A stretch of DNA of 64,000 bases, from positions 1 to 64,000 of the forward strand of contig JAPOVV010000103.1 in NCBI GenBank assembly GCA_026707945.1. Direction: 5' to 3'. Below the pieces are notes generated by a model. The model saw only the letters and a program-made list of their open reading frames with translations, had not been told where the DNA came from and ran no database searches. Each line of letters begins with the position of its first letter. Positions within the stretch are counted from its first letter, which is position 1. Both the position numbers and the translations under genes were made by a program. Shown here in pieces: positions 7,064-49,593 of the stretch. Source of the stretch: Gammaproteobacteria bacterium (GTDB lineage Bacteria; Pseudomonadota; Gammaproteobacteria; Pseudomonadales; Azotimanducaceae).

Positions 7064-7142
7064 CGATTCGGTCTCTCTGGATTTACGGTCGCGGAATTAG
7101 ACAATACGCCAACATGCCGAAAACGAGTTACGAACCAAGGAC

Positions 7143-7613
7143 ATGAGCACTCGAAAAACGCTATATCTCGCCAATGACTATGGCTTCAGCAAACTAGGAA
7201 AATTCGGTCCACTACCGCGTTTGGTAGAGGAGTTAACTCGATTAGGTGTTGATGTCTGGGAGCCATTCGAGCGAAACAACCAAATCGATTTCTCAAGGAA
7301 AGGTTGGGCTTATCAGGTCGGTCAAGCTGACTATGCGGATGTACGAAACTCAGACGGGACTTTCGCGATCGTAAACGGCTGTCCGCCTGACGAAGGTGTG
7401 ATGATCGAACTAGGTATGGCAATCGCACTAGAGAAGGCGGTGTTTCTATTTCGGGATGATTTTCGACGAAGCACTGATAGTGAGGACTACCCGCTAAATC
7501 TGATGTTGTTTACCGCCTTTCCAGAAAAAAACTGGCACGACTACTACTACACCTCAATTGAAGAAATCGCTGACCCCAATAAAGCGCTGGTTCGCTGGTT
7601 GCAATCGGAATAG
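7143..7613 (+). CDS. Nucleoside 2-deoxyribosyltransferase-like protein
   Basis: A 156-residue protein with the pattern of nucleoside 2-deoxyribosyltransferases, which swap bases on deoxyribose or hydrolyse nucleoside analogues. It opens TLYLANDYGFS (strand 1 and substrate loop), has D71 in SDGTFAIVNG, and places E89 in EGVMIELGMAIAL at the position of the family's nucleophilic glutamate. FLFRDDFR (about 101-108) matches the strand that follows. Length fits (140-160). It sits alone, divergent from the LLM gene. It might be a nucleotide-salvage or damaged-nucleoside hydrolase. Confidence 0.75.
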   Translation: MSTRKTLYLANDYGFSKLGKFGPLPRLVEELTRLGVDVWEPFERNNQIDFSRKGWAYQVGQADYADVRNSDGTFAIVNGCPPDEGVMIELGMAIALEKAVFLFRDDFRRSTDSEDYPLNLMLFTAFPEKNWHDYYYTSIEEIADPNKALVRWLQSE

Positions 7614-7718
7614 AACTTTTCGATCTGATTCTTCTGATTGGTGTGGCGACAGACAATAAACAAAGTACTTTTGGCGCGCGTCTTCAAAGTAGAGCAACTT
7701 TGTACGTTAGCGATCCTT

Positions 7719-8918: not shown

Positions 8919-9620
8919 TTAAGTTAGATGATGCGCAACCAGATTCGTAAATGCATGGTCGACTTGGCCGTCTGTTGCTAGATCAGCCTTAGCGTAAAGA
9001 GCGGCGTTATGCGAAATCGGTTGCGGATTCCTAGATTTCAGGTGCGCCTCCGCGACGCGTTCCATCATGATGAACCATACGACCGATTCCCTTGGCGTTT
9101 TGCCAACCGATAGCAAACCGTGGTTTCGCAAGATCAAGCCGCGATTACGTCCGAGCGACTCAGCAATTCGAAAACCACAATCAGTGTCTTGAACCTGCAC
9201 TTCATCGTCGTCGAAGACATCGTGATCGTCAATAAAGATACAGGACTCTTGGGTAATCGCCTCGAATTTGCGAGCCTCTGCGGCAAACGGTGTGCCGAAC
9301 GGCGTGTGCGTGTGCGCGACGCTGTTAAGGTCCGGTCTTTTAGCGAGGATGGGATAGTGAATGTAGAACGCGGGCCAATTCGTCGCGCCTTCACCTTCAA
9401 TAACTTCGCCTTCTGAATTAAGCCGCACGAGTTTCGTCACGCTTGCGTGTTTGAATGGCGTGTTCGCATCGAGTAACCACAATGAATTCTGATCAGCTGG
9501 ATCACGCCCGCTAATGTGTCCGTCTCCTAAATCACCCCAACCAAGTTCAGCGAAAAGCTGATAGCCTAGTGCGATTTCTCTCTTGAGCTGCTGCCGTTTC
9601 GTAGCTAGTTCGTTGGCCAT
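8919..9620 (-). CDS. Class II aldolase/adducin family protein
   Basis: A 233-residue class II aldolase/adducin-fold protein. The zinc ligands are visible as H103 and H105 in HTHTPFG and H167 in RNHGLL, and GWGDLGDGHISGRDP near 27-41 is the phosphate/substrate loop. Family members are fuculose- or ribulose-phosphate aldolases/epimerases and various carboxylate-linked proteins without phosphorylated substrates. The stop of the DegP-like gene's opposite end lies upstream (21-base gap to 9642), so it may be read with it from the minus strand. Substrate unknown. Confidence 0.82.
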   Translation of the reverse strand: MANELATKRQQLKREIALGYQLFAELGWGDLGDGHISGRDPADQNSLWLLDANTPFKHASVTKLVRLNSEGEVIEGEGATNWPAFYIHYPILAKRPDLNSVAHTHTPFGTPFAAEARKFEAITQESCIFIDDHDVFDDDEVQVQDTDCGFRIAESLGRNRGLILRNHGLLSVGKTPRESVVWFIMMERVAEAHLKSRNPQPISHNAALYAKADLATDGQVDHAFTNLVAHHLT

Positions 9621-37687: not shown

Positions 37688-38158
37688 ATGTCTGACCACC
37701 TACAAAACGCATACGAAACCCTCACCGCGCGAATCGGCGAATCTTCGGCACCAACTGATTGGTTTGAAGTTACACAGGATCGAATTAACGATTTCGCTGA
37801 CGTGACGATGGATCATCAATGGATTCATATTGATGAAGGTCGGGCAAAAGCAGGTCCGTTTGGAACCACGATCGCACATGGACATCTGACTCTGTCGATC
37901 ATGGGTCACCTGCCTCGGTCAGTCGTCGAATCGGGTCCGAGGCTTGAAGGTCAGAAGTTGACTATCAACTACGGCTTTGATAAAGTGCGGTTCCCTGCAC
38001 CTGTTCCAGTCGGCGCAAAAATTCGAACGCAAAGCACGTTAAAACGAGTCGAGATCAAGGGTGGCATGATCGAAACGATGAACGAAATCGTCGTCGAAGT
38101 AGAAGGACAGGAAAAACCTTGCTGCGTCGCCGAAAGCTTAGGTCGACTGGTCTTTTAA
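37688..38158 (+). CDS. MaoC-family (R)-specific enoyl-CoA hydratase
   Basis: A 156-residue single hot-dog protein with the MaoC catalytic motif: D42 and H47 in MDHQWIHIDEGRA, followed by GPFGTTIAHGHLTLS (about 57-71). Family members hydrate enoyl-CoA to (R)-3-hydroxyacyl-CoA. An AGGAG site lies about 9 bases before the ATG. It begins a plus-strand group with the amidohydrolase (65 bases) and an acyl-CoA dehydrogenase, and it diverges from the ADP-ribosylglycohydrolase gene. Length matches the family (about 140-160). Confidence 0.88.
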   Translation: MSDHLQNAYETLTARIGESSAPTDWFEVTQDRINDFADVTMDHQWIHIDEGRAKAGPFGTTIAHGHLTLSIMGHLPRSVVESGPRLEGQKLTINYGFDKVRFPAPVPVGAKIRTQSTLKRVEIKGGMIETMNEIVVEVEGQEKPCCVAESLGRLVF

Positions 38159-38222
38159 GCGAGTGGATGGAAAATCTATCGCTACCACGTTCATCTCAGA
38201 CGATTAGACCGACGTTGACGTA

Positions 38223-39389
38223 ATGACTGCAGCAGTTTCGTACAAGAACATACAGATCTGGGACGGCGAGAGTGCCGCGTACCTCCTAGAGACGTCCTTA
38301 ACGATTGAGTCTGGACGAATTACGGCTATTGGTGACGCTAATCCTCAGGCGCGAGACTGTTCGGGATTAACCGTTATACCTGGCTTAATCGACAGTCACG
38401 TCCACATGACGTTAGATCCCGCTATTCATGATGTCGAAAAGCAACTCGCTCAGACTGATGACGACATAAGGAAAAAGATGCCCGATCGAGCCTTCAGCAT
38501 GATCAAGGCGGGTATCACGTGTGCACGAGATCTTGGTGGCGGAAACTGGCTTGAGTTGGAATTGCGTGATCAGATACGAAAGGGTGAAATCAAAGGTCCT
38601 CGCTTACTTTGCGCCGGTCGTCCGATCACCTCAATTGAAGGGCACTGCCATTTCTGGGGCGGTGCTGTTCCGGGTGCGAGTGAAGCGCATCACGTGGTCG
38701 ACCAAAATCGCGAACAAGGGGTCGATCTGATCAAGATCATGGCAACAGGCGGGATGTTCACGGCCAAAAGCCATCCCGGGCGTGCGCAGTTCAGTCAGGA
38801 TGAATTGACCGACATCATTTCCTATGCGCACGACCAAGATTTTGCAGTTGCAGCTCACTGTCACGGTAGCGAAGGCATCGCGCACGCTGTATTCGCTGGT
38901 GTCGACACCGTAGAACATTGCTCCTGGATGGATACTGAAGGCCGCCGAGGTGAGTACCTGCACGACGTCGTACTCGAAATGGCTTCGCGCGATACCTGGG
39001 TTTCCCCTACAGTGAACGGGAATTGGGCACGATTCATCCAGTTTAACGCAGCTCATCTTGGGATCGTACGTCAGCAGTTTCGCGAAATGAAGGCGGCGGG
39101 CGTGCAATTTATCGCGTCGACGGACGCTGGTATTCCAAACGTGCGACACGACGATCTACCAAGAGCTCTGCCGGTATTTGCGAGGTACGCTGATATGCAA
39201 CCTGTCGATGTTTTAAGAACTGCGACTAGCAACGCAGCTCGCGCACTTAACATTCACAGCGAGACAGGTACGGTCAAAGTCGGTCGTTCGGCCGATTTAG
39301 TGTTTGTTGAAGGCGATCCACTGAAGGATTTAGAGGTCCTCCAGAAGCCTGCATGCGTCGTTGCGCGCGGAATCGAATTCGAGAGCTAG
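38223..39389 (+). CDS. Metal-dependent amidohydrolase (imidazolonepropionase/prolidase-like)
   Basis: A 388-residue amidohydrolase with a binuclear metal site. Ligands visible are H59 and H61 in DSHVHMT, the carboxylated lysine K171 in LIKIMATGG, H212 in AAHCHG, H232 in VEHCSW and D301 in STDAGIPN. This pattern matches the prolidase/dipeptidase subfamily (Xaa-Arg type, Sgx9260-like). The gene follows MaoC by 65 bases and precedes acyl-CoA dehydrogenase by 12 bases, so it is likely in one operon. Hydrolysis of an N-acyl or peptide bond of a dipeptide-like compound is inferred. Confidence 0.88.
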   Translation: MTAAVSYKNIQIWDGESAAYLLETSLTIESGRITAIGDANPQARDCSGLTVIPGLIDSHVHMTLDPAIHDVEKQLAQTDDDIRKKMPDRAFSMIKAGITCARDLGGGNWLELELRDQIRKGEIKGPRLLCAGRPITSIEGHCHFWGGAVPGASEAHHVVDQNREQGVDLIKIMATGGMFTAKSHPGRAQFSQDELTDIISYAHDQDFAVAAHCHGSEGIAHAVFAGVDTVEHCSWMDTEGRRGEYLHDVVLEMASRDTWVSPTVNGNWARFIQFNAAHLGIVRQQFREMKAAGVQFIASTDAGIPNVRHDDLPRALPVFARYADMQPVDVLRTATSNAARALNIHSETGTVKVGRSADLVFVEGDPLKDLEVLQKPACVVARGIEFES

Positions 39390-39401
39390 GAGATACAACG
39401 A

Positions 39402-40547
39402 ATGGAGTTTAGAGCAGAAATCCAGTCATACATCGCCGAGAACTGTCCGGAGAGCATTCGTGATCCAGACCAGCAAGCGACGCGAGATGATTGGCAAGCT
39501 TGGTCACAAAAGTACTTCGAGAGAGGTTGGTCCGCTCCAACATGGCCCACTAAATACGGTGGTGGCGGGTTGGAAAAGCCAGAAATCGCGATCCTTCAAG
39601 AAGAATTGCGCAAGCATCACGCAGTCGTTGGCGTAGGTGGAATGGGACTCACGATGATTGGTCCAGCGTTACTTGAATTCGGCACAGAAGAGCAGTGCAT
39701 GCAGCACTTGCCGAAGATTGTTCGACAGGAAATTGTCTGGTGTCAAGGCTACAGCGAACCAGGCTCAGGTTCGGATTTAGCAAGCCTCCAAACGCGTGCA
39801 GTGTCGGACGGCGACGACTACATCATCAATGGCTCAAAAATCTGGACTTCGGGCGCGGATCATGCCGATTGGATGTTCTGTCTGATCCGTACTGATCCAG
39901 ACGCGCCGAAACATGAAGGGATTAGTTTCATCTTGTTTGACATGAAGTCGCCCGGTGTGAGTGTAAAGCCGATCCTGCTCATTAGTGGCGCATCGCCATT
40001 TTGTCAGACGTTTTTGGATGATGTCCGCGTACCGAAGAGCCACATCGTAGGTGAGGTCAATAAGGGTTGGACGGTCGCAAAACGTCTCCTTCAATACGAG
40101 CGAACTTCGATTGGTGGTATCGGTGGTGGCGGTGGCGGTCCGCGTGCGAAGACGTTAGACGAACTCGCAAAGGAATGTGTCGGTGAAGATGACGGAAAGA
40201 TCGCTTCAGCTGATTTACGCGACAGGATTACACATCATCGCATGAATGATCATGTGTTCGGGCTGACGACGCGCCGGTCCGGAGAGGAGACTAGAGCGGG
40301 TGTAGCGCCTACCTTTATATCATCGATGTTCAAGTATTACGGTACGGAACAAAACAAGAACCGCTACGATCTTCTTGTTGAGATGATGGGCGTGAACGGA
40401 CTCGGTTGGTCGGGGGAGGAATTCGACCAGCAGGACTTAGGGGTTACGCGTCAATGGTTGCGCTCCAAAGCGAACTCAATCGAAGGCGGAACGTCGGAGG
40501 TTCAGTTGAACATCATCGCGAAGCGCATTCTAGGATTGCCTGACTAA
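39402..40547 (+). CDS. Acyl-CoA dehydrogenase
   Basis: A 381-residue FAD-dependent acyl-CoA dehydrogenase (first oxidation of beta-oxidation). Marks are WCQGYSEPGSGSDLASLQT (about 111-129), YIINGSKIWTSGADHADW, GISFILFDM, and the C-terminal SIEGGTSEVQLNIIAKRIL. GGAG lies about 8 bases before the ATG and the amidohydrolase ends 12 bases upstream. The chain length preference is unknown. Downstream a hairpin precedes the MFS gene. Confidence 0.92.
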   Translation: MEFRAEIQSYIAENCPESIRDPDQQATRDDWQAWSQKYFERGWSAPTWPTKYGGGGLEKPEIAILQEELRKHHAVVGVGGMGLTMIGPALLEFGTEEQCMQHLPKIVRQEIVWCQGYSEPGSGSDLASLQTRAVSDGDDYIINGSKIWTSGADHADWMFCLIRTDPDAPKHEGISFILFDMKSPGVSVKPILLISGASPFCQTFLDDVRVPKSHIVGEVNKGWTVAKRLLQYERTSIGGIGGGGGGPRAKTLDELAKECVGEDDGKIASADLRDRITHHRMNDHVFGLTTRRSGEETRAGVAPTFISSMFKYYGTEQNKNRYDLLVEMMGVNGLGWSGEEFDQQDLGVTRQWLRSKANSIEGGTSEVQLNIIAKRILGLPD

Positions 40548-40572
40548 GCAACGCGGTCCTTCGGTTGATGTG

Positions 40573-40597
40573 GACCTCTCTCAATTTGATAGAGGTC
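40573..40597 (+). terminator. Hairpin after the acyl-CoA dehydrogenase gene
   Basis: GACCTCT pairs with AGAGGTC across an 11-base loop (7-base-pair stem), followed by ACGATTTCTTATTTG, which is T-rich. It probably ends the MaoC-amidohydrolase-dehydrogenase transcript. Loop size is larger than ideal. Confidence 0.4.
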
Positions 40598-40615
40598 ACG
40601 ATTTCTTATTTGTAG

Positions 40616-41854
40616 TTGACTGTGGCGAATAGCTCTCTCCTTATGCGCTTTTCTGCAGCTTTAGAAAGGCGAATTCGTACACCTTTTGCGTTCCTCGTGA
40701 TCGTCAGTATCGCTATGCCAATAGGTATGTCGGTATGGCAGGCATTACTCAACAACTATGCCGTTGAACAAATCGGTATCAACGGACTTGAAAACGGGAT
40801 CATGCAGAGCATCCGTGAGGTCCCAGGATTTTTAGCGTTCACATCCGTATTCATTCTGCTGGTCCTGCGCGAGCAGGTATTTGCGGTCATTGCTTTGGCC
40901 GTGTTCGGTTTAGGTATCGCGATCACCGGACTTCTACCAACGGTTTATGGACTCTACTTTGCCGTCGTCCTGATGTCGATTGGGTTTCATTATTTTGAAA
41001 CGGTGCGCCAATCGCTATCGCTGCAATGGTTACCTAAACGAGTTGCGCCTAGATTATTAGGGGCACTCATATCCGTCGGTTCTATCACCGCCTTCTGTAC
41101 CTTTCTAACCGTATTAGCGCTCGTCAAGTGGTTGGAATTTGATTACGTAACGATCTATGCAATAGCAGGCGGCATCGTGCTGTCAATAGCTATTTTTGTT
41201 GCCATCGTAGCGCCGCGTTTTAAGTCGCGTGTCGAGCAGCGCAAGCAGATCGTGCTTCGCAGTAAATACTGGCTCTACTATGGTTTAACGTTCCTAAGTG
41301 GTGCGCGTCGACAGATTTTTGTCGCGTTTGCTGGTTTCCTGTTGGTCCAACGCTTCGGTTTTTCCGTTGCCAATATGACCGCATTGCTGCTCATCAACCA
41401 TCTCGTGAACGCAATTGCGGCGGAACGGATAGGAGCTTGGATCGGAAAGATTGGCGAGCGACGCGCGCTCACCGTCGAGTATATTGGTCTGGCAGTTATC
41501 TTCAGCTGCTACGCGTTTGTCGAGACCGCGTGGGTCGCTGGTTTACTTTACGTGCTGGATCACTTTTTCTTTGCCATGGGCATCGCGATCAAGACATACT
41601 TCCAAAAAATCGCTGAACCGGCGGATATTGCTTCGACGGCTGGTGTGTCGTTCACGATCAATCACATCGCCGCGGTAGCCATCCCTGCGATCCTTGGTAG
41701 TATTTGGTTGGAATCGCACGCTGCCGTGTTCCTGATCGGTACGGCCTTTGCTGTATGCTCGCTTGCTTTGGCGCAGAATATCCCGAATTCGCCCTCCCAA
41801 GGAAATGAAGTCCAGATTGCGCCTACGTTTCTCCGACCGCGAACCAATCCTTAG
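40616..41854 (+). CDS. MFS-type transporter
   Basis: A 412-residue, very hydrophobic protein with about 12 predicted membrane spans and a Pro/Gly-rich end. It fits the major facilitator superfamily, though classic motifs (GxxxDRxGRR) are weak; ERIGAWIGKIGERRAL near 263-278 resembles the loop 2-3/8-9 repeat. It starts TTG at 40616 or GTG at 40622; no strong ribosome site. It follows the dehydrogenase transcript and precedes the CaiB/BaiF gene by 21 bases, so it may import the substrate used there. Substrate unknown. Confidence 0.8.
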   Translation: MTVANSSLLMRFSAALERRIRTPFAFLVIVSIAMPIGMSVWQALLNNYAVEQIGINGLENGIMQSIREVPGFLAFTSVFILLVLREQVFAVIALAVFGLGIAITGLLPTVYGLYFAVVLMSIGFHYFETVRQSLSLQWLPKRVAPRLLGALISVGSITAFCTFLTVLALVKWLEFDYVTIYAIAGGIVLSIAIFVAIVAPRFKSRVEQRKQIVLRSKYWLYYGLTFLSGARRQIFVAFAGFLLVQRFGFSVANMTALLLINHLVNAIAAERIGAWIGKIGERRALTVEYIGLAVIFSCYAFVETAWVAGLLYVLDHFFFAMGIAIKTYFQKIAEPADIASTAGVSFTINHIAAVAIPAILGSIWLESHAAVFLIGTAFAVCSLALAQNIPNSPSQGNEVQIAPTFLRPRTNP

Positions 41855-41875
41855 ACACAAAACGATCCGAACGCC

Positions 41876-43060
41876 ATGAGTTCACTACCGCTTGCAGACA
41901 TTACGGTACTAGACCTGACCATCGCACGAGCTGGACCTACCGCGGTTAGATTGTTGGCGGATTGGGGTGCAAACGTTATCAAGATTGAGCCACCGCCCGT
42001 CAAGTCAGGATCAATAACGGGTGGTCGCCATGGTCCAGATGAACAAAACTTACATCGAAACAAGCGCGGGTTGTGCATCAACCTGAAGCATGAAGAAGGA
42101 CACGCCCTCTTTGTAGAGATGGTAAAGCGCGCAGATATCGTGGTAGAGAACTTCCGTGCTCCGGTGAAACACAGGCTAAAGGTTGACTACGAGACATTAG
42201 CTCAATACAACGAGCGGTTGATTTACGCGAGTATCTCAGGTTTTGGCCAGGATGGTCCCTACAGTGACCGCCCTGGCGTAGACCAAATCGTTCAAGGGAT
42301 GTCTGGCTTAATGTCGATCACAGGACATCCTGGTGGCGGTCCTGTACGAGCGGGTATTGCGATCAGCGATACGACTGCAGGCATGTTCCTAGGGCAGGGC
42401 ATCCTACTCGCGTTAATTCACCGCGAACGAACAGGTAAGGGGCAGTGGGTTCATACCTCATTGCTCGAAGGCATGCTGTGCAAGCTCGACTTCCAGGGTG
42501 CACGCTTTACGATGATGGGAGACGTCCCGAAGCAACAAGGTAACAACCATCCTACGAACTTTCCGATGGGAACTTTTCAGTGTAAAGATGGCTATGTGAA
42601 CATCGCAGCGCCAACTGAACGAATGTGGGTGAGTTTCTTGGATGCCATCGAAGATACTGAGTTACGAGTAGATGATCGCTTCTTAACGCCTCGGGATCGG
42701 ATCAAGAATCGCAATGAGCTTGAAACAGCCATTAACACAGCATTAGTGAATTTCTCGGTGGATCAGCTAGTTGAAAAACTCAATGCGAACGGCGTTCCTT
42801 GCGGACCTATCCTCGATGTTGGCGAAGGATTCACGAATCCTCAAGCGAAGCACCTGCAAATGGCAAAAAGCGCGCCACACAAGGAACTCGGTGATGTTAA
42901 TCTCATCCGGTCACCGATCAATATGTCCGCTCTTCCGCATGCGGAGACCTTTGATCGTGCTGCGCCGAATCCCGGCGAACACACGCGCGAGATACTAGTG
43001 GAGTTTGATATAGCAACCGATCGTATCGACGCGCTCTACGACGCCGGTACGATCGGCTGA
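41876..43060 (+). CDS. CaiB/BaiF family III CoA-transferase
   Basis: A 394-residue CoA-transferase with LLADWGANVIKIEPPPV (26-42), the NKRGLCINLK motif (62-71), the catalytic-position D165 in AISDTTAGM and ERTGKGQWVHT (183-193). This full set differs from the pair at 3762-6138, where one copy is degenerate. The ATG lies 21 bases after the MFS gene. It converges head-on with the UGSC operon, with only two bases between the stop codons. Acyl acceptor unknown. Confidence 0.9.
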   Translation: MSSLPLADITVLDLTIARAGPTAVRLLADWGANVIKIEPPPVKSGSITGGRHGPDEQNLHRNKRGLCINLKHEEGHALFVEMVKRADIVVENFRAPVKHRLKVDYETLAQYNERLIYASISGFGQDGPYSDRPGVDQIVQGMSGLMSITGHPGGGPVRAGIAISDTTAGMFLGQGILLALIHRERTGKGQWVHTSLLEGMLCKLDFQGARFTMMGDVPKQQGNNHPTNFPMGTFQCKDGYVNIAAPTERMWVSFLDAIEDTELRVDDRFLTPRDRIKNRNELETAINTALVNFSVDQLVEKLNANGVPCGPILDVGEGFTNPQAKHLQMAKSAPHKELGDVNLIRSPINMSALPHAETFDRAAPNPGEHTREILVEFDIATDRIDALYDAGTIG

Positions 43061-43062
43061 GA

Positions 43063-43584
43063 CTATTGTTGGGTTAACGCGGCGACGACCTCATCGACGC
43101 AAGCTTCCGCCTTGAGTCGCATCTCTTCGTCTGTTGCATCCTGAATCGGATGCTGTACAAAGACGCACTTAGCGTCGTCCATCCCGAGAGCTTGGGCTTG
43201 GGTTTCTGCCGCGTCTACGAATTCCGTGGAAGCAATACTTACTGCAGGGATCCCCTGGATTTCAAACCAGACCGTGTCATGCAAACTGCACGTGGTACAG
43301 GACCCTCAGTCAGCCAGTCCTTCGACGACTAAATCCGCATTCGCTTTGATGTTCTGACGAACATCCGTCGGCGCTGGCTTAGTGAACGTTGGTTTTTCGA
43401 AACGCTTGACCTCTAACTTCGGATATCGTTCAGCCAACAATTCTTCCAACCGATCCAACAGGATGTTGCCACGTGGTTTGCGAATGTCTAGCAATGCGAG
43501 CCGACCTTCGAGGGACTCAGCACGCGCCGTGATAGAACGCGCGACTGGCTTCCGCTCGTCAGTCGGATCAAGAATGGTGCTCAT
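43063..43584 (-). CDS. UGSC-family selenoprotein (in-frame TGA as selenocysteine)
   Basis: Read through an in-frame TGA (43306-43308), this is one 173-residue protein. The frame before it ends VVEGLAD and the frame after begins GSCTTCSLHDTVW, giving Sec93-Gly94-Ser95-Cys96, the motif that names the UGSC (seleno)protein family. The N-terminal half has a Rossmann-like opening, GRLALLDIRKPRGN (27-40); the second half has AETQAQALGMDD and FVQHPIQ near 125-145, also seen in the family. AAGGAGG lies 7 bases before the ATG. A candidate SECIS hairpin lies at 43271-43296. The redox function is not established. The gene follows the thioredoxin-fusion gene by 18 bases and ends two bases from a convergent gene. 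Without Sec incorporation it would be two fragments. Confidence 0.85.
43271..43296 (-). promoter_or_regulatory. Candidate bacterial SECIS element
   Basis: Starting 10 bases 3' of the TGA, RNA ACC pairs with GGU and, inside, CGUGCA pairs with UGCAUG (one G-U), leaving the apical loop GUU at 20-22 bases from the TGA. A bacterial SECIS needs a short hairpin with a G in the first loop positions at about 16-37 bases from the UGA, which fits. The internal loop is asymmetric (A opposite ACAC). Confidence 0.6.
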
Positions 43585-43602
43585 GCGTAACCTCCTTGAA
43601 GT

Positions 43603-45159
43603 TCACATGTTAATTTTGCGCGACACAGGGATAGATCCCATACTGCCGCTTGCCCAGCCATGAAACACGGCTGAGAATTTACCCGCTTCTGATCCCGCAA
43701 CCACGATGTGGATGCGATCTTCTGATGCGAACTTAGGTATTGGACGCGATAACTCTTCGTCTGACATGTTGGCGGCTGCCTGAGCCGGTATACCGACACC
43801 GCTCCTCGAGTCCGCGATTAGTTCACGGAATGGCACACTTGACACTTCCTGAATGCGTGCGCGAATATCCGCCTTAGACCAGCCATCGCGTTGAATCGTA
43901 TCCACGTGCTCGGGACTGATAACTAGGATCGTATCGCCTGCACGATGCGCTTTTACGGCGTGGACCGCCCGCATCGACAGTGCGAAACTGCCGACCAGGG
44001 CTTCCGCTGATCGCGACGTTTGATCAACGATTTGCGCGGGTCCGCTCGACATCGCAAATATTGAGACAACCGAATCCTCTGGCTCGAAACCGCGTTCGAC
44101 GTGGAGTGGTTCCCATGGGCTTCGTTCCTCCCATTCAGGGAAGCACATCGTGAATTTCATGGGATTGCCCAGTGTCGATCGTTCTGTACCACCTGGTTTT
44201 GCCCCGCCAATGTTGCGAACCGCAAGCCGGACAGCTCGACCGATCGCGGCATTCGCACGGGTACCTTGCCCAAGCGCAGACAACTTCATGTTCATATCCA
44301 ACGCATGGCGTACTGGACCGTTCAGAATCATGACCGGTGTTCCGCCCATGGTGGTTGCAAATACGCCGTGGCAGTTGAATTCGTCCGTGCACATCGCTTC
44401 GATCGTCGCGATGACGACAGGTAGGTATTCGGGTTTGCAACCGGCCAATACCGCGTTTATCGCAATCTTTTCGACCGTCGCAGGCGCAAGGTTGGGCGGG
44501 ATCGTCGCGACCACGTCTTGTGGATCGCGGTCGGTACCACCGAGTATGCGTATGACACGCTCTGGTGTTGGTGGTACGACGGGTAGACCGTCCGTAAACC
44601 CTTGATCGAACAAAAACTCGTGGACATCGTCGTGCGATGCGATTTCAATGCGACGTGCTCGTAACGGACTGTTCTCAGCCTCGGCTCGAAGACGTTCTGC
44701 AATGATCGGATCTTGCGTTAACGATCCACAGCCAGGACGCCAATCGGGAAGCAAGTTCCAATCGATATCCACATTGCTTATGTCTTCGCTGAGGAGGTCA
44801 CGCCATTCGGACTTGTCGAAGCCAATAACTTCCTTTATCGGTTCGCCCACGTCATCAAGCAGTATTGCATGCGGAACCGTATCGAGTTCGTATGCAAATG
44901 ACACGATCAACGTCGAGTCGTCAAGTACTGGTACAGACAACTCGTGATTTTTTGCGAGCAGCTCGTTTCCATCTGACGTTTGTCCGACGAGCAAAACGTC
45001 AGCATCGCCTTCCCGATGTGCTGCTTCTAGGAGTGGGGCGACCAGATTACAGGTTGGACAGTCTTCCTTTACGAAGCACAAGAGTGTTTTCGTACCAGTG
45101 GGCACGCTGTGATCAGTGCCGTTGAGATCCGTTAATGTGAAGGGTTGAACTGCAGTCAT
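43603..45159 (-). CDS. Thioredoxin-like domain fused to a long domain, UGSC-associated
   Basis: A 518-residue protein. Residues 1-130 are thioredoxin-like, with FVKEDCPTCNLVAPLL and the active pair C34-P-T-C37. DWRPGCGSLT near 140 resembles a Cys-containing counterpart of the UGSC site. Residues about 150-518 form an unassigned domain with FTDGLPVVPPTPE (about 183-195), DVVATIPPNLAP, FNCHGVFATTMGGTPVMILNGPV (about 258-280) and HIVVAGSEAGKF. The fused layout next to a Sec protein suggests a redox partner. Stop is 18 bases before the selenoprotein start; the RraA-like stop is 9 bases before its own start (TAGGTCA purine site), so the three are an operon. Function not known. Confidence 0.7.
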   Translation of the reverse strand: MTAVQPFTLTDLNGTDHSVPTGTKTLLCFVKEDCPTCNLVAPLLEAAHREGDADVLLVGQTSDGNELLAKNHELSVPVLDDSTLIVSFAYELDTVPHAILLDDVGEPIKEVIGFDKSEWRDLLSEDISNVDIDWNLLPDWRPGCGSLTQDPIIAERLRAEAENSPLRARRIEIASHDDVHEFLFDQGFTDGLPVVPPTPERVIRILGGTDRDPQDVVATIPPNLAPATVEKIAINAVLAGCKPEYLPVVIATIEAMCTDEFNCHGVFATTMGGTPVMILNGPVRHALDMNMKLSALGQGTRANAAIGRAVRLAVRNIGGAKPGGTERSTLGNPMKFTMCFPEWEERSPWEPLHVERGFEPEDSVVSIFAMSSGPAQIVDQTSRSAEALVGSFALSMRAVHAVKAHRAGDTILVISPEHVDTIQRDGWSKADIRARIQEVSSVPFRELIADSRSGVGIPAQAAANMSDEELSRPIPKFASEDRIHIVVAGSEAGKFSAVFHGWASGSMGSIPVSRKINM

Positions 45160-45168
45160 CGCCGTGAC

Positions 45169-45873
45169 CTAGTGGACTTCAGCCGCGTCCCCCCAAGCTT
45201 TCTGCAAGCGCTCGAAGTCAAAGCCGTCTTCCTGTGCGGCATTGATGATGACCCGCTCTCGACGTGCGATCGCGGCTGCCGCATCTGGCACTTCGTGAGC
45301 TTTGTCGTTCGGAATGACGACGGCGCCGTGTTGATCAGCGTGGATTAAGTCCCCACTTGTAACGCGCATTCCCGCGACGTTTATGCCGCCGCCGTAGGAG
45401 ACCGGATGAACAAATGCATGTGAGGGACCAATACGGTCAGCGAGCATTTGAAAACCTGGCGCGATATCTGGAATGTCGCGCACACTTCCGTCCGTGATTA
45501 ATCCGACACAGCCTAAACCACAATGAATGTTGCTATTCACTTCGCCCCAAAACGACCCATAGCCACGCGACTCACCATCCAAATCTTGAATCACGATGAT
45601 GGCGGGTTTCGGACCGTCATCGATGTACTGATAGTAGCCGTGCTGGATGTCTCGTGCAGCTTCACCACGAGCGTCTGAGGGGTGCATTGCTCGAATACAC
45701 GCGGTACGCGCATATCCGACCATGCTGCCCAATTCAGGTCTTGTGCAGACCAGCGGATCTGTGGTATATCCGTAGCCACGGCGCTGAGGTATCACAGACT
45801 CTAATGCATTGCATACCGTTGGCGTATCCAGTTCTTTTAGTTGCTCGATTAGGTCGTCAGAGACGGTCGTCAT
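45169..45873 (-). CDS. RraA-family protein (HMG/CHA aldolase-like)
   Basis: A 234-residue RraA-like protein (PF03737 type), a fold that includes 4-hydroxy-4-methyl-2-oxoglutarate aldolase and RNase E regulator RraA. The key motif is present: GLGCVGLITDGSVRD (about 128-142), with metal/substrate-binding D138 and R141. The start opens STVSDDLIEQLKELDTPTVCNAL. It is longer than RraA (about 160) and closer to the catabolic members that cleave keto acids. It is the first gene of the operon leading to the selenoprotein. Substrate unknown; relation to the redox partners is unexplained. Confidence 0.86.
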   Translation of the reverse strand: MTTVSDDLIEQLKELDTPTVCNALESVIPQRRGYGYTTDPLVCTRPELGSMVGYARTACIRAMHPSDARGEAARDIQHGYYQYIDDGPKPAIIVIQDLDGESRGYGSFWGEVNSNIHCGLGCVGLITDGSVRDIPDIAPGFQMLADRIGPSHAFVHPVSYGGGINVAGMRVTSGDLIHADQHGAVVIPNDKAHEVPDAAAAIARRERVIINAAQEDGFDFERLQKAWGDAAEVH

Positions 45874-46012
45874 ATGCTGATTTTCCTTTCCAGTAGCGCA
45901 GGGAAGAGCGGGTATGTTAGCGATTAAACGTTGTGATACTTTGTCAACCTCGTATGCGCGAGAAGGCAGCTCAACGAAAATCCGTTTGTAAAATTGCGCG
46001 CGGCTATCAAGT

Positions 46013-46088
46013 GGGTGTTTAGCTCAGCTGGGAGAGCGGTGGCCTTACAAGCCACAGGTCGCAGGTTCGACCCCTGCAACACCCACCA
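46013..46088 (+). tRNA. tRNA-Val(TAC)
   Basis: A cloverleaf with acceptor GGGTGTT/AACACCC, D-arm GCTC..GAGC, anticodon stem GTGGC/GCCAC around CTTACAA (anticodon TAC, valine) and T-arm CAGGTTCGACCCCTG. Encoded CCA at 46086-46088. It is followed 38 bases later by tRNA-Asp. Confidence 0.96.
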
Positions 46089-46126
46089 CTTACTATCATT
46101 ACGTTTTGATAGAGATTGATCGTCTC

Positions 46127-46203
46127 GGAGCGGTAGTTCAGCTGGTTAGAATACTGGCCTGTCACGCCAGTGGTCGCGGGTTCGAGTCCCGTCCGCTCCG
46201 CCA
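46127..46203 (+). tRNA. tRNA-Asp(GTC)
   Basis: A cloverleaf with acceptor GGAGCGG/CCGCTCC, discriminator G, anticodon stem CTGGC/GCCAG around CTGTCAC (anticodon GTC, aspartate) and T-arm CGGGTTCGAGTCCCG. Encoded CCA at 46201-46203. Co-oriented with tRNA-Val(TAC), a common pair in gammaproteobacteria. Confidence 0.96.
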
Positions 46204-46451
46204 CTTCTTACTTTAACTTATTGTTTTATTTAGTTATTTTTAGCGAAATCTCTCGGTCCACGAACATTCTTGACTAGCTCACCCATAACGTTTTGGTGAG
46301 AGTGATGACGTGAACTGAAATACAGGTTCGCGAATTTGCCCCTTCGGCACATTGTGCTTGTCGCGGAACCGCGCACGTCCACCTATGTATCGGTGAACTC
46401 TCACCTGTAGAATCGCTCCTCGCCTCTCACTTAGATGGTTTTACCAGCATC

Positions 46452-46958
46452 GTGTCAGATTCCACCGTCAATCCAATAGCGAAAATCGGCGCTCTAACTC
46501 TGCAGTCCTTCGAGCGTGGTAACGCTTACGCGAGTTCCGACGTGAGAATTGGTCCGCGCATCGGTCTTGAGAAACTCGGAGCTACGTATACGGAAGTACC
46601 ACCTGGTAAGTCCTCATGTCCGTTTCACGTTCACCACGTCGAAGAGGAGATGTTTGTCATACTTGAAGGTGAAGGGCGTTATCGGTTTGGATCGGAGATT
46701 TATGAAGTCCAAGCTGGCGACGTGTTGGGTGCGCCTTGCGGCGGACCGGAAGTCGCACATAAGCTCACCAACACAGGTTCGAAAACGCTCAAATACTTAG
46801 CCATTTCGACGATGGCGCGAACCGATGTGTGTGAATATCCCGACAGTGGCAAGTTCGCCGTTGGAACGCGAAGCGATCGACCTGAGGAATTCGGTTACAT
46901 TGGTCGTGCGGTAGACCCTCTCGACTATTGGGATGGGGAGCCCGACAGTGCTCTCTGA
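46452..46958 (+). CDS. Cupin-domain protein
   Basis: A 168-residue cupin with both motifs: PFHVHHVEEEMFVILEG (about 57-73; GxHxHxxxxE class) and the second GDVLGAPCGGPEVAHKLTN (about 88-106). The metal ligands are H58, H60 or H61, E64/E65 and H102. GTG start. Cupins of this kind are often oxygenase or sugar-isomerase proteins; here the C-terminus includes GYIGRAVDPLDYWDGE, similar to small single-domain cupins. No operon partner is close; the next gene starts 180 bases downstream. Confidence 0.8.
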   Translation: MSDSTVNPIAKIGALTLQSFERGNAYASSDVRIGPRIGLEKLGATYTEVPPGKSSCPFHVHHVEEEMFVILEGEGRYRFGSEIYEVQAGDVLGAPCGGPEVAHKLTNTGSKTLKYLAISTMARTDVCEYPDSGKFAVGTRSDRPEEFGYIGRAVDPLDYWDGEPDSAL

Positions 46959-47070
46959 TGGCCAATAGGGACTACATCCGTAATGTGCTTTGCCCGGATA
47001 AGAGGTGCGATTCCTTATCCCGTAGTCCTAGGTAGAAAAACCGACTATGAGAAAATTGCCGAAATGAAAG

Positions 47071-47088
47071 AAGGCAATACATTGCCTT
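47071..47088. repeat. Perfect inverted repeat in the cupin-dehydrogenase spacer
   Basis: AAGGCAA and TTGCCTT flank a 4-base loop (TACA). It could form a transcript hairpin in the 180-base spacer between cupin and hydroxylase-type dehydrogenase. No T-run follows on the plus strand; a weaker T-rich stretch follows on the minus strand. Confidence 0.4.
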
Positions 47089-47138
47089 TGTCGGTTCGCT
47101 TGATAGCAACACATGTGTTTGCTTGACCGAAAACCGTC

Positions 47139-48305
47139 GTGACGGAAAGATCCGTGACTAACCCTGTTCAATTGAATCAATTAGATCGACAACCAGCGCC
47201 GCTCAAACGCGCGAAAACTCTTTACGATGAAATCGTCGCAGCAGGCGATGCGATCGATGAAAATCGAGAGATTCCTACAGCTCTAGTAGCGAAGCTAAAG
47301 AGCGCGAATCTACTTCGTTTGCTCGTTCCGAAGCGACTCGGAGGCGAGGAGATGGATTGGTATGAGTACTTGGATGTCATTCTCACGATAGCACATGCAG
47401 ATGGGAGCGTGGGTTGGTGCATTAATCAAGGCAATGTTTTCGCAACCAACGCGGCGAGAGAACCAGTAGAGCTTGCGCGGGAAATCTGGGGTGTCCACGA
47501 AGGTAGTTGTGGCAACGGTCCGCCTATCAACGCTACATCGAAAGACGTGTCTGGCGGTTACTTACTAAGCGGTAAATGGATTTTTTCGAGTGGTTGTCGA
47601 CATGCGAATTGGTTAGCCGCACTCGTAACGAGTTCAAGCCATCCGCCTCGACTCCATTTCATGCCAAAAGACGACATCGAGCTAATTGACAACTGGCAAG
47701 TTCACGGTCTTCGAGGAACCGGTAGTTTCGGATTTACGTGCCAGGACTATTTCGTCCCTGAGAATCGGGTGATGCGAATGGATCTCCCGCATGTCGAGCC
47801 GGGACCTATTTACAAGATTCCGATATCGTTGATGTTTGCGTGTGGTTTTGGGTGCGTTGCACTTGGAGTGGCTCGATCGGGATTGGACAGTGTAATCGAA
47901 CTGAGTCATACAAAGAAACCTCAGTTTGGAAAACTGACGCTCGCACAAGATCCCGTCGTTCAGAGTAAGATCGGTCTAGCGGAAGGACTGTTTGGAGGTG
48001 CAAAAGCCTTCCTTTACGATACTGTCGGTGAGGTTTGGGAGAGTGTTCAGATGAACGGCAAGATCTCTATGGATGAGAGATTACAGCTGCGCTTGGCTGG
48101 TACTCACGCTATTAGACAATCGGCACAAGTTATTGATATTGTTTACAACTTAACGGGCTCTAACGCGATTTTCAAATCTACGGTTATCCAACGCAAGTTT
48201 CAGGATATCCACGTAATTACTCAGCAAGTACAGGGCCGAGAATCACACTATCAGACTGTTGGCGCGCATTTGCTCGGTGAGAGCCCGGAAGGCGGCATTT
48301 ACTGA
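47139..48305 (+). CDS. Acyl-CoA dehydrogenase-fold flavin hydroxylase-like protein
   Basis: A 388-residue protein similar in layout to the one at 27894-29063. Visible are AHADGSVGWCINQGNVF (about 87-103, hydroxylase-branch motif), GGYLLSGKWIFSSGCRHANW (about 140-159) and LRGTGSFGFTCQDYFVPE. The C-terminal helical part ends with QGRESHYQTVG. The branch includes flavin hydroxylases and sulfur or aromatic monooxygenases rather than CoA dehydrogenases. GTG start. It converges with the limonene-monooxygenase-like gene (40 bases), which might supply or need the same reductase. Substrate unknown. Confidence 0.8.
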   Translation: MTERSVTNPVQLNQLDRQPAPLKRAKTLYDEIVAAGDAIDENREIPTALVAKLKSANLLRLLVPKRLGGEEMDWYEYLDVILTIAHADGSVGWCINQGNVFATNAAREPVELAREIWGVHEGSCGNGPPINATSKDVSGGYLLSGKWIFSSGCRHANWLAALVTSSSHPPRLHFMPKDDIELIDNWQVHGLRGTGSFGFTCQDYFVPENRVMRMDLPHVEPGPIYKIPISLMFACGFGCVALGVARSGLDSVIELSHTKKPQFGKLTLAQDPVVQSKIGLAEGLFGGAKAFLYDTVGEVWESVQMNGKISMDERLQLRLAGTHAIRQSAQVIDIVYNLTGSNAIFKSTVIQRKFQDIHVITQQVQGRESHYQTVGAHLLGESPEGGIY

Positions 48306-48345
48306 TTTGACTCCACGCTGACGCGTGTTCACAAAATCCTACCCG

Positions 48346-49593
48346 TCAGTCAGAGTCAGAGGCTGCTTTTTCTATCTCCGTTGAAGCATGAGCTTGAAGC
48401 GCGGAAGCGGCTCTTGCGTTTTGAGCAGCTTTCATCGCTTCAGCTGCACGCTTGTTTTCCTGAATCTTCGCATTAATCGCCATGCCAGCTCGCATCCAGG
48501 TTTCTCGGTTCTCAATTACATATTGATTCGATTCGCGATAGTCGTTTACGAGGCCGTTCACTTCCGGAATAACGTACCGGGCGACTAAATCCCAACTATT
48601 CAACGTATCTGCTCGATTTGCCCAATCGTGCACAAATCCAATCACACAGCCAAATCCGCCGGACAGCTCCTGCATTTCGTAGATTTTTGCGACTAGGTCA
48701 TCGGGAGTACCGATGACGCTCACACTTCCTTCGCTAAATGCCATCACGTCTACGGCTTCGTCTGGCGTTTTAAAGATCTGTCCTTGACCGGCCGCAAGCG
48801 TGCCAACGGTATATTCGTTGTTGTGCCGGAAGAGACCGTCTCGAGCTTGTTCGCGTGCCTTGTCGCGAGTCTCGGCGATATGCCAATTCAGCACGAGACG
48901 CCATGCACTCCGGTCTACCACGTTGCCATGCTTCTCAGCAGCTTCTTCAGCAAAACTCCATTGCAGTGGCAGCGCTTGGATACCGGCTTGTGATGTAGAG
49001 CCGATCGACAGTACGCCTATCCCATGCTTGCCGGCCAGTGTCATACCCGACGGACTGACCAAGGACGCTACCGTAAACTCCATGTTCTTCTGAACGGGTT
49101 TCAGTTGCAGTTTCGCGTCTCGCAGGGTAAACCACTCAGACTCCACTGTGAAGCGTTCGTTGGCCTCGAACAACCTCCGAATTACGCCGATCGCTTCGTC
49201 TTGACGATCGCGCAATACCATCGGATCAACGCCCAATGTGTGAGCATCACTTGGAAGTGCGCCTGGTCCTGAGCCAAAAATCACGCGACCACGAGATTGA
49301 TGGTCAAGTTGCGCCATTCTTTGTGCGACCATGAATGGATGGTGATAGGGTAGCGACACAACGCCCGTACCTAACCGAATACGGTGGGTTCGTTCGGCGG
49401 CCGCCGCTAAGAAGAGTTCCGGCGATGCGATAACCTCCCAACCAGTTGAATGATGTTCGCCACACCAAAACTCGTCAAACCCGAGTCGGTCCATGTGAGC
49501 AACGAGTTCAAGGTCGCTCTGAAACTGTAAAGTCGGGTGTTCTCCAATTGGGTGATGTGGCGCTAGAAACGCACCGAATCGCATGTCGCTCAT
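48346..49593 (-). CDS. Limonene monooxygenase-like LLM flavin oxidoreductase
   Basis: A 415-residue luciferase-like protein. It opens MRFGAFLAPHHPIGEHP and has LGFDEFWCGEHHSTGWE, IRLGTGVVSLPYHHPFMVAQR (about 70-90) and GPGALPSDAHTLG (about 107-119). This set resembles the limonene 1,2-monooxygenase branch, which oxidises terpenes with FMNH2. The C-terminal 60 residues are Ala-rich and charged, probably helical and variable. It lies downstream of the RND pump genes on the same strand with 135 bases between, including a hairpin. The exact terpene substrate is inferred from family, not shown. Confidence 0.8.
   Translation of the reverse strand: MSDMRFGAFLAPHHPIGEHPTLQFQSDLELVAHMDRLGFDEFWCGEHHSTGWEVIASPELFLAAAAERTHRIRLGTGVVSLPYHHPFMVAQRMAQLDHQSRGRVIFGSGPGALPSDAHTLGVDPMVLRDRQDEAIGVIRRLFEANERFTVESEWFTLRDAKLQLKPVQKNMEFTVASLVSPSGMTLAGKHGIGVLSIGSTSQAGIQALPLQWSFAEEAAEKHGNVVDRSAWRLVLNWHIAETRDKAREQARDGLFRHNNEYTVGTLAAGQGQIFKTPDEAVDVMAFSEGSVSVIGTPDDLVAKIYEMQELSGGFGCVIGFVHDWANRADTLNSWDLVARYVIPEVNGLVNDYRESNQYVIENRETWMRAGMAINAKIQENKRAAEAMKAAQNARAASALQAHASTEIEKAASDSD

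Follow-up and report, generated by a model that had tools for sequence, protein, structure and literature searches.

The stretch of DNA analysed here (the window, 64,000 nucleotides, positions 1 to 64,000 of contig JAPOVV010000103.1, assembly GCA_026707945.1, Gammaproteobacteria bacterium, Azotimanducaceae) carries on its minus strand a short gene with an in-frame TGA, preceded by a longer gene, hereafter the partner. The features of this locus are as follows.

45169 to 45873, minus strand: RraA-like gene, 9 nt upstream of the partner gene, kept in only part of the relatives.
43603 to 45159, minus strand: partner gene, 518 residues, directly upstream of the UGSC gene with 18 nt to its start.
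44785 to 45159, minus strand: N-terminal thioredoxin-fold domain of the partner, residues about 1-125 with approximate boundary, assigned from sequence matches and predicted structure.
45049 to 45060, minus strand: CPTC redox motif of the partner, residues 34-37, present as C-x-T-C in 76 of 80 loci.
43606 to 44784, minus strand: C-terminal domain of the partner (PART_C), residues about 126-518, without Pfam or NCBIfam family.
43591 to 43596, minus strand: AGGAGG, likely ribosome-binding site, 6 nt 5' of ATG, read from the sequence.
43063 to 43584, minus strand: predicted UGSC selenoprotein gene, 173 residues, with stop codon TAG at 43063-43065.
43306 to 43308, minus strand: in-frame TGA, codon 93, putative Sec as judged from the frame translation and the relatives' site codons.
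43278 to 43292, minus strand: SECIS-like apical hairpin CGUGC-AGUUU-GCAUG, with the stem kept in 117 of 117 sequences and synonymous codons nearly frozen.

Translation from 43584 down to 43063 yields 92 codons (ATG counted), TGA at 43308-43306, 80 further codons and TAG, all in a single frame, which bears out the proposal of the first-pass annotation that two minus-strand frames join at the TGA without frame change into one gene of 173 codons. The residues around this codon read ...LVVEGLAD-U-GSCTTCSLHD..., and the list of open reading frames held the 92-residue part alone (43306-43584), in agreement with the expectation that a standard-code gene caller splits the gene at TGA. The read-through protein scored 170.6 bits against NCBIfam NF041046, 'UGSC family (seleno)protein' (residues 28-171, profile positions 4-147 of 147, curated cut-off 125 bits), and 169.2 bits against Pfam PF24696 (residues 3-172, profile positions 1-172 of 172, cut-off 25 bits), passing both cut-offs over most of the profile. 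Since both matches extend across the TGA, its two flanks belong to one family and, as had been supposed, to one protein. The x-G-S-C motif of the family, where the first residue is Sec or Cys, is supplied by the TGA lying within it, and the family label with its U-G-S-C motif was assigned correctly at first sight. Having in common with the family both the full-length match and the Sec-Gly-Ser-Cys motif, with no substantive difference, the window gene is by its sequence an ordinary member of the known UGSC family. PF24696 is present in 6 of 369 genomes drawn from the class, the window's own included. The earlier statement that UGSC function is not known accords with the available part of PMC13188914, according to which the functions of such selenoprotein families 'remain largely uncharacterized'.

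The genome of the window (117 contigs, 96% complete) contains selA, selB, selD and tRNA-Sec, the absence of which had been named as an argument against selenocysteine: SelA was detected with E 2.2e-146, SelB with 1.5e-123 in a gene adjoining selA, SelD with 4.0e-77, and tRNA-Sec with anticodon TCA at 71.1 bits (cut-off 47), all of them on contigs other than the window's. Among 14 named genomes taken as control SelA was matched in two, while SelB, SelD and tRNA-Sec gave matches in all 14, exceeding the cut-off in 2, 2 and 5, respectively. Across 97 genomes (the window's own and relatives) the UGSC family occurs in 47 at E <= 0.001, in 43 of them over the cut-off, and 74 of the 77 matches have exactly one in-frame TGA; of the remaining three, two encode Ser at that position and the third is a fragment covering profile positions 4-52 only. 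Thirty of those matches, including that of the window, were made into loci, and in every one the motif contains TGA. A further set came from scanning named genomes with PART_C, namely the best 80 of 570 loci, which for this reason is biased to the nearest kin of the window; the record titles, mostly of MAGs, name Gammaproteobacteria, Alphaproteobacteria, Chloroflexi, Acidobacteria, Actinomycetota, Myxococcota and others. The site codon was readable in 78 of these best 80 (L145 and L170 end at the contig edge), being TGA in 77 and TAG in one, with no Cys form among them, so the relatives give no refutation of the earlier proposal. Cys occupies the Sec site in one distant UGSC relative (L103 of genome G430, C-G-L-C), and the available part of PMC2398784 tallies the family as 255 Sec and 21 Cys forms. 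Ser stands there in two UGSC paralogues: L082 (TCA), where a SECIS-like hairpin is still present after the codon and no PART_C lies within the 2 kb read, may have lost Sec recently, and L083 has no such hairpin.

The single TAG belongs to Candidatus Blastococcus massiliensis (L151, UGSC gene at 7113-7643). In its genome the top tRNA-Sec match (64.2 bits) has anticodon CTA and is typed by ARAGORN as tRNA-Pyl, a further match above the cut-off (48.2 bits) is classed by the same program as tRNA-Ser(TGA), and eight others fall under the cut-off. UAG-decoded UGSC proteins of Geodermatophilaceae have already been reported (section 17 of PMC5330540, available in part, citing an earlier paper), and L151 presents the same, its UGSC site being TAG and its tRNA-Sec having anticodon CUA; the case is already known and is used here as evidence only. 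It bears on the reading of the TGA as a true stop or a sequencing error, with only the 92-residue part being made. Under the standard code translation does end at this codon, yet TGA recurs at the site in records of several phyla, the Sec genes are in place, the codon of the lone exception tracks the anticodon of its tRNA-Sec and both halves of the protein are conserved, which makes such a stop or error extremely improbable. Decoding of codon 93 as selenocysteine, judged from genome content and conservation, is almost certain. Over the same set of 97 and at E <= 0.001, UGSC was found in 46 of the 61 genomes with SelA and in one of the 36 without it (G056, 93% complete), both counts ignoring kinship. 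Within the window's genus SelA is present in 18 of 18 genomes and UGSC in 10 of 18, which makes it probable that Sec has further uses there besides UGSC.

Bacterial SECIS elements are hairpins with a G in the loop situated just 3' of UGA. A hairpin of this type, with the loop G and just 3' of UGA, is found in all 117 distinct sequences selected by pattern (TGA-GG plus residue motif, leaving out L151 and divergent forms): with T of TGA counted as 1 it occupies nt 17-31, at a distance of 18 nt from UGA to the loop, and keeps its five pairs and loop GU throughout, in the form CGUGC-AGUNU-GCAUG with few changes. Some of the divergent UGSC members have other sequences at this site that are likewise able to fold as hairpins (single folds, without shuffles). 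The entropy of synonymous codons in the selected set amounts to 0.20, 0.12, 0.00 and 0.70 bits at codons +5 to +8, with maxima of 2.00, 1.00, 2.58 and 2.58, respectively, and to 0.42 of 1.00 at codon +10, being mostly near maximum elsewhere; Ser +7 is encoded by AGT in all 111 sequences with Ser there, and Cys +3 by TGT in 70 and TGC in 47. When codons +4 to +12 were redrawn in 200 rounds, the stem appeared on average in 18 of 117 sequences and at most in 34, versus 117 observed. The outer pair 15-36 forms in 85 of 117 sequences versus 50.4 expected from the columns, as C-G, G-C and G-U, and pairs 14-37 and 13-38 (87 each versus 86 expected) have no excess. These comparative tests took the place of single-sequence folding, in which the hairpin region of the window is no more stable than shuffles (z 0.76). 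The SECIS check proposed earlier thus came out positive for conservation across relatives and negative in Rfam, where the region around the window's TGA gave no SECIS and two matches far below gathering scores. Compared across relatives, the near-fixed hairpin behaves as expected of a bacterial SECIS and, along with the sel genes and the relatives' site codons, supports the Sec decoding put forward in the first-pass annotation.

The AlphaFold2 model of the UGSC protein, computed from 77 sequences with Sec replaced by Cys, reached pLDDT 93.7 and is composed of strands (E) and helices (H) in the order E27-33, H39-53, E57-63, H73-82, E85-91, Sec93, H94-109, E114-119, H120-132, E140-143 and H152-171, so that strand and helix alternate five times and Sec93 lies directly before helix 94-109; the earlier mention of an Ala/Gln-rich helix finds its counterpart in helix 120-132, of which it is a weak description. 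Most of the best 50 PDB matches retrieved by Foldseek have a flavodoxin-like fold (FMN reductase, azoreductases, flavodiiron proteins, WrbA) and some are of other kinds, all at modest TM values not exceeding 0.53 of the query. Sequence search found no solved UGSC relative, and the viral structure library gave no useful match. A thioredoxin fold, proposed for UGSC in 2008 (PMC2398784, available in part), was considered and rejected in view of the strand-helix layout of the model, the lack of thioredoxin among the best 50 PDB matches and the profile score of 13.8 with the thioredoxin domain. For the UGSC protein the prediction is a Rossmann domain resembling flavodoxins.

For the N-terminal domain of the partner, the top PDB match of the predicted structure is ResA (TM about 0.8 of the target), with StoA also close; scores with the NCBIfam models for StoA and MauD are far below cut-off. 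The four PART_C loci outside the C-x-T-C majority comprise two with CPTT, one with ambiguous bases and one cut by the contig end; a V-P dipeptide, as in the cis-proline loop, is present in 79 of 80 by a loose test. Searching 47 members of the partner family against Pfam gave thioredoxin-type families and weak other matches but no family for PART_C itself, nor was any NCBIfam family obtained for it from 14 members; the profile search for a solved relative found none, its one match (E 1.6) being unrelated by name. The 47 sequences have many invariant residues in PART_C, including H264, T269, T270, E342, E344 and H418.

The UGSC profile matches in 79 of the 80 loci obtained with PART_C, and the last (L170) has an apparent UGSC start at the contig end, judged by eye. 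Where the distance between the two genes was measured (78 pairs), it is -4 to 212 nt in 74 and 1.2-3.9 kb in four. Locus L147 contains another UGSC gene near 9125, which matches in part. Fusion of UGSC with PART_C occurs in certain divergent genomes: in eight of nine copies in genome G425, and likewise in the copy of G230, the two are joined in one frame with no further TGA between them; the ninth copy of G425 (L053) was missed by the pattern and is represented by two tblastn matches in frame. The nine UGSC/PART_C genes of G425 (L053, L057-L064) reside in a genome of 3.5 Mb and have the motifs USTC, USSC, USLC and UGSC; this expansion may reflect different substrates. A thioredoxin domain of the window type (E <= 1e-4) was not found near the G425 and G230 fusions, which is weak evidence since this domain varies. 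The available part of PMC2398784 mentions a fusion of UGSC with Unknown_1, and the latter may correspond to PART_C. Gene order and fusion, taken from loci chosen by their likeness to PART_C, make it very likely that UGSC and the partner constitute a two-protein enzyme.

Some of these loci are linked to the Sec machinery itself. SelA and SelB were found within the fetched flank (up to about 6 kb) in 19 of 80, accompanied by tRNA-Sec(TCA) in 18 and by SelD in 6. Twelve loci, mostly alphaproteobacterial by title, have the order selB, tRNA-Sec, partner, UGSC, with selA in the same direction in eight and reversed in four; selA and selB follow UGSC in L161, L168 and L172, the tRNA is on the opposite strand in L174, L180 and L182, and selB and selA face UGSC in L115. 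Such proximity hints that the UGSC pair is maybe one reason for some lineages to keep Sec. Clustering of neighbours over the 80 loci gave, the partner aside, a largest cluster of 37 loci, and the genes of the 37- and 18-locus clusters are mostly opposite to the partner or SelA strand. In the window, the RraA-like gene is perhaps in the same operon as the partner, and tRNA-Val(TAC) and tRNA-Asp(GTC) lie beside it on the plus strand at 46013-46203. The neighbouring genes include those like CoA-transferase, acyl-CoA dehydrogenase and flavin monooxygenase, and the neighbourhoods at 37688-43060 and 45169-49593 are kept in close relatives, as would suit a catabolic enzyme of one pathway, for instance one removing a substituent reductively in an acyl-CoA route. 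In other genera and in the 80 loci, however, UGSC and the partner persist as a pair amid genes that are mostly different, and a dedicated role of this kind appears rather improbable.

A further comparison concerns the selenoproteins GrdB of glycine reductase and PrdB of D-proline reductase. Matches to PF07355 (GrdB) are present in 15 of 58 genomes (the window's own and relatives), the window's own being without a match, and the window protein gave none up to E 10, hence the relation between UGSC and GrdB/PrdB is remote. In each of the 20 GrdB-like genes fetched, a TGA stands where the PF07355 match ends, in the motif U-P-x-C in 16, U-P-L-D in 3 and U-G-T-C in one. Relatives of the window genome supplied nineteen GrdB/PrdB-like genes (L194-L212) in which TGA opens U-P-x-(C or D). 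In three pairwise hhalign runs of UGSC with the 20 GrdB-like proteins, Sec was placed on Sec each time at probabilities of 91.8, 89.8 and 92.3 (the last with a more diverse UGSC set, n=79, and a score of 54.2), figures that stem from pairwise comparison and lack calibration against a database. Among the controls, 60 column-shuffled decoys reached at most 19.0 in score and 0.9 in probability, the reversed profile scored 18.1, the whole partner 16.3, PART_C 15.0 and the thioredoxin domain 13.8. PART_C bears no likeness to the GrdB-like profile, and the profile search for a solved GrdB or PrdB chain yielded just two matches (E 0.12 and 0.52), both unrelated by name. On profile comparison, UGSC is predicted to be remotely homologous to the Sec domain of GrdB/PrdB.

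The following course of events would be compatible with these properties. SelB and Sec-tRNA(UCA) would read UGA 93 as Sec with the help of the downstream hairpin, bringing the selenol of Sec93 just before helix 3 of the protein, with the second Cys three residues on (U-G-S-C). The UGSC protein would work together with the upstream-encoded partner, whose PART_C domain would hold the substrate or activate it. Attack by the selenolate would cleave a carbon-heteroatom bond, or a comparable electrophile, reductively; Sec93 would be left in a selenenyl-sulfide with Cys96 as the resolving residue, and this bond would then be reduced by the CPTC thioredoxin domain of the partner. The chemistry of GrdB and PrdB invoked in this analogy is partly general knowledge. 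By such analogy, GrdB/PrdB-like chemistry for the UGSC pair stands at about even chances. The roles of GrdB and PrdB behind the analogy are taken from the available part of PMC13188914.

The same motif and neighbour would also serve a selenoprotein thiol oxidoreductase or peroxidase, acting through U-x-x-C in redox defence or disulfide exchange with the thioredoxin domain encoded next door as reductant. This alternative is unlikely, as the predicted UGSC fold is not that of thioredoxin, the UGSC profile prefers the GrdB/PrdB-like one to the thioredoxin domain (54.2 versus 13.8), and the large PART_C with its invariant polar residues suggests a specific substrate. The full explanation preferred here, a Sec subunit of a GrdB/PrdB-like reductase recharged by the thioredoxin domain of the partner, is in our estimate evenly poised between right and wrong. 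A broader view would regard UGSC and PART_C as halves of an unrecognised class of Sec-dependent reductases sharing an ancestor with GrdB/PrdB, equipped with a built-in thioredoxin, distributed over several phyla, partly with its own selA-selB-tRNA-Sec cluster and multiplied in one genome to nine copies of fusion type, each perhaps for a substrate of its own; this we put forward tentatively, at slightly less than an even chance. With the partner named, the fold predicted and the GrdB/PrdB link drawn, an 'unknown redox protein' becomes a testable two-gene enzyme.

Neither a link of UGSC to GrdB/PrdB nor a thioredoxin-fused partner was found in the available parts of PMC2398784, PMC13188914, PMC9312934, PMC5330540, PMC5029168 and PMC10778597. 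Measured against this partial literature, four points are additions to the known family, though that does not establish them as new: the partner, the fold predicted to differ from thioredoxin, the relation to GrdB/PrdB and the linkage to sel genes. Of these, the partner gene, the GrdB/PrdB relation and the sel linkage had escaped the first-pass annotation. With ResA, TlpA and StoA the N-terminal domain of the partner shares the fold and CxxC, and it differs from them by the fusion to PART_C and by the C-x-T-C form of the motif. With GrdB/PrdB (PF07355) UGSC shares the Sec, followed by Cys three residues on in 17 of the 20 GrdB-like sequences and lacking it in the three with U-P-L-D, as well as the downstream (L/F)E..G(I/L/V)P and a corresponding stretch that reads HPIQ in UGSC and HPLG (L193) or (F/Y)PLG-type in the GrdB-like proteins; in UGSC the Sec precedes a predicted helix. 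UGSC is shorter than the GrdB-like proteins, has no direct match to PF07355 and is neighboured by the thioredoxin-PART_C protein.
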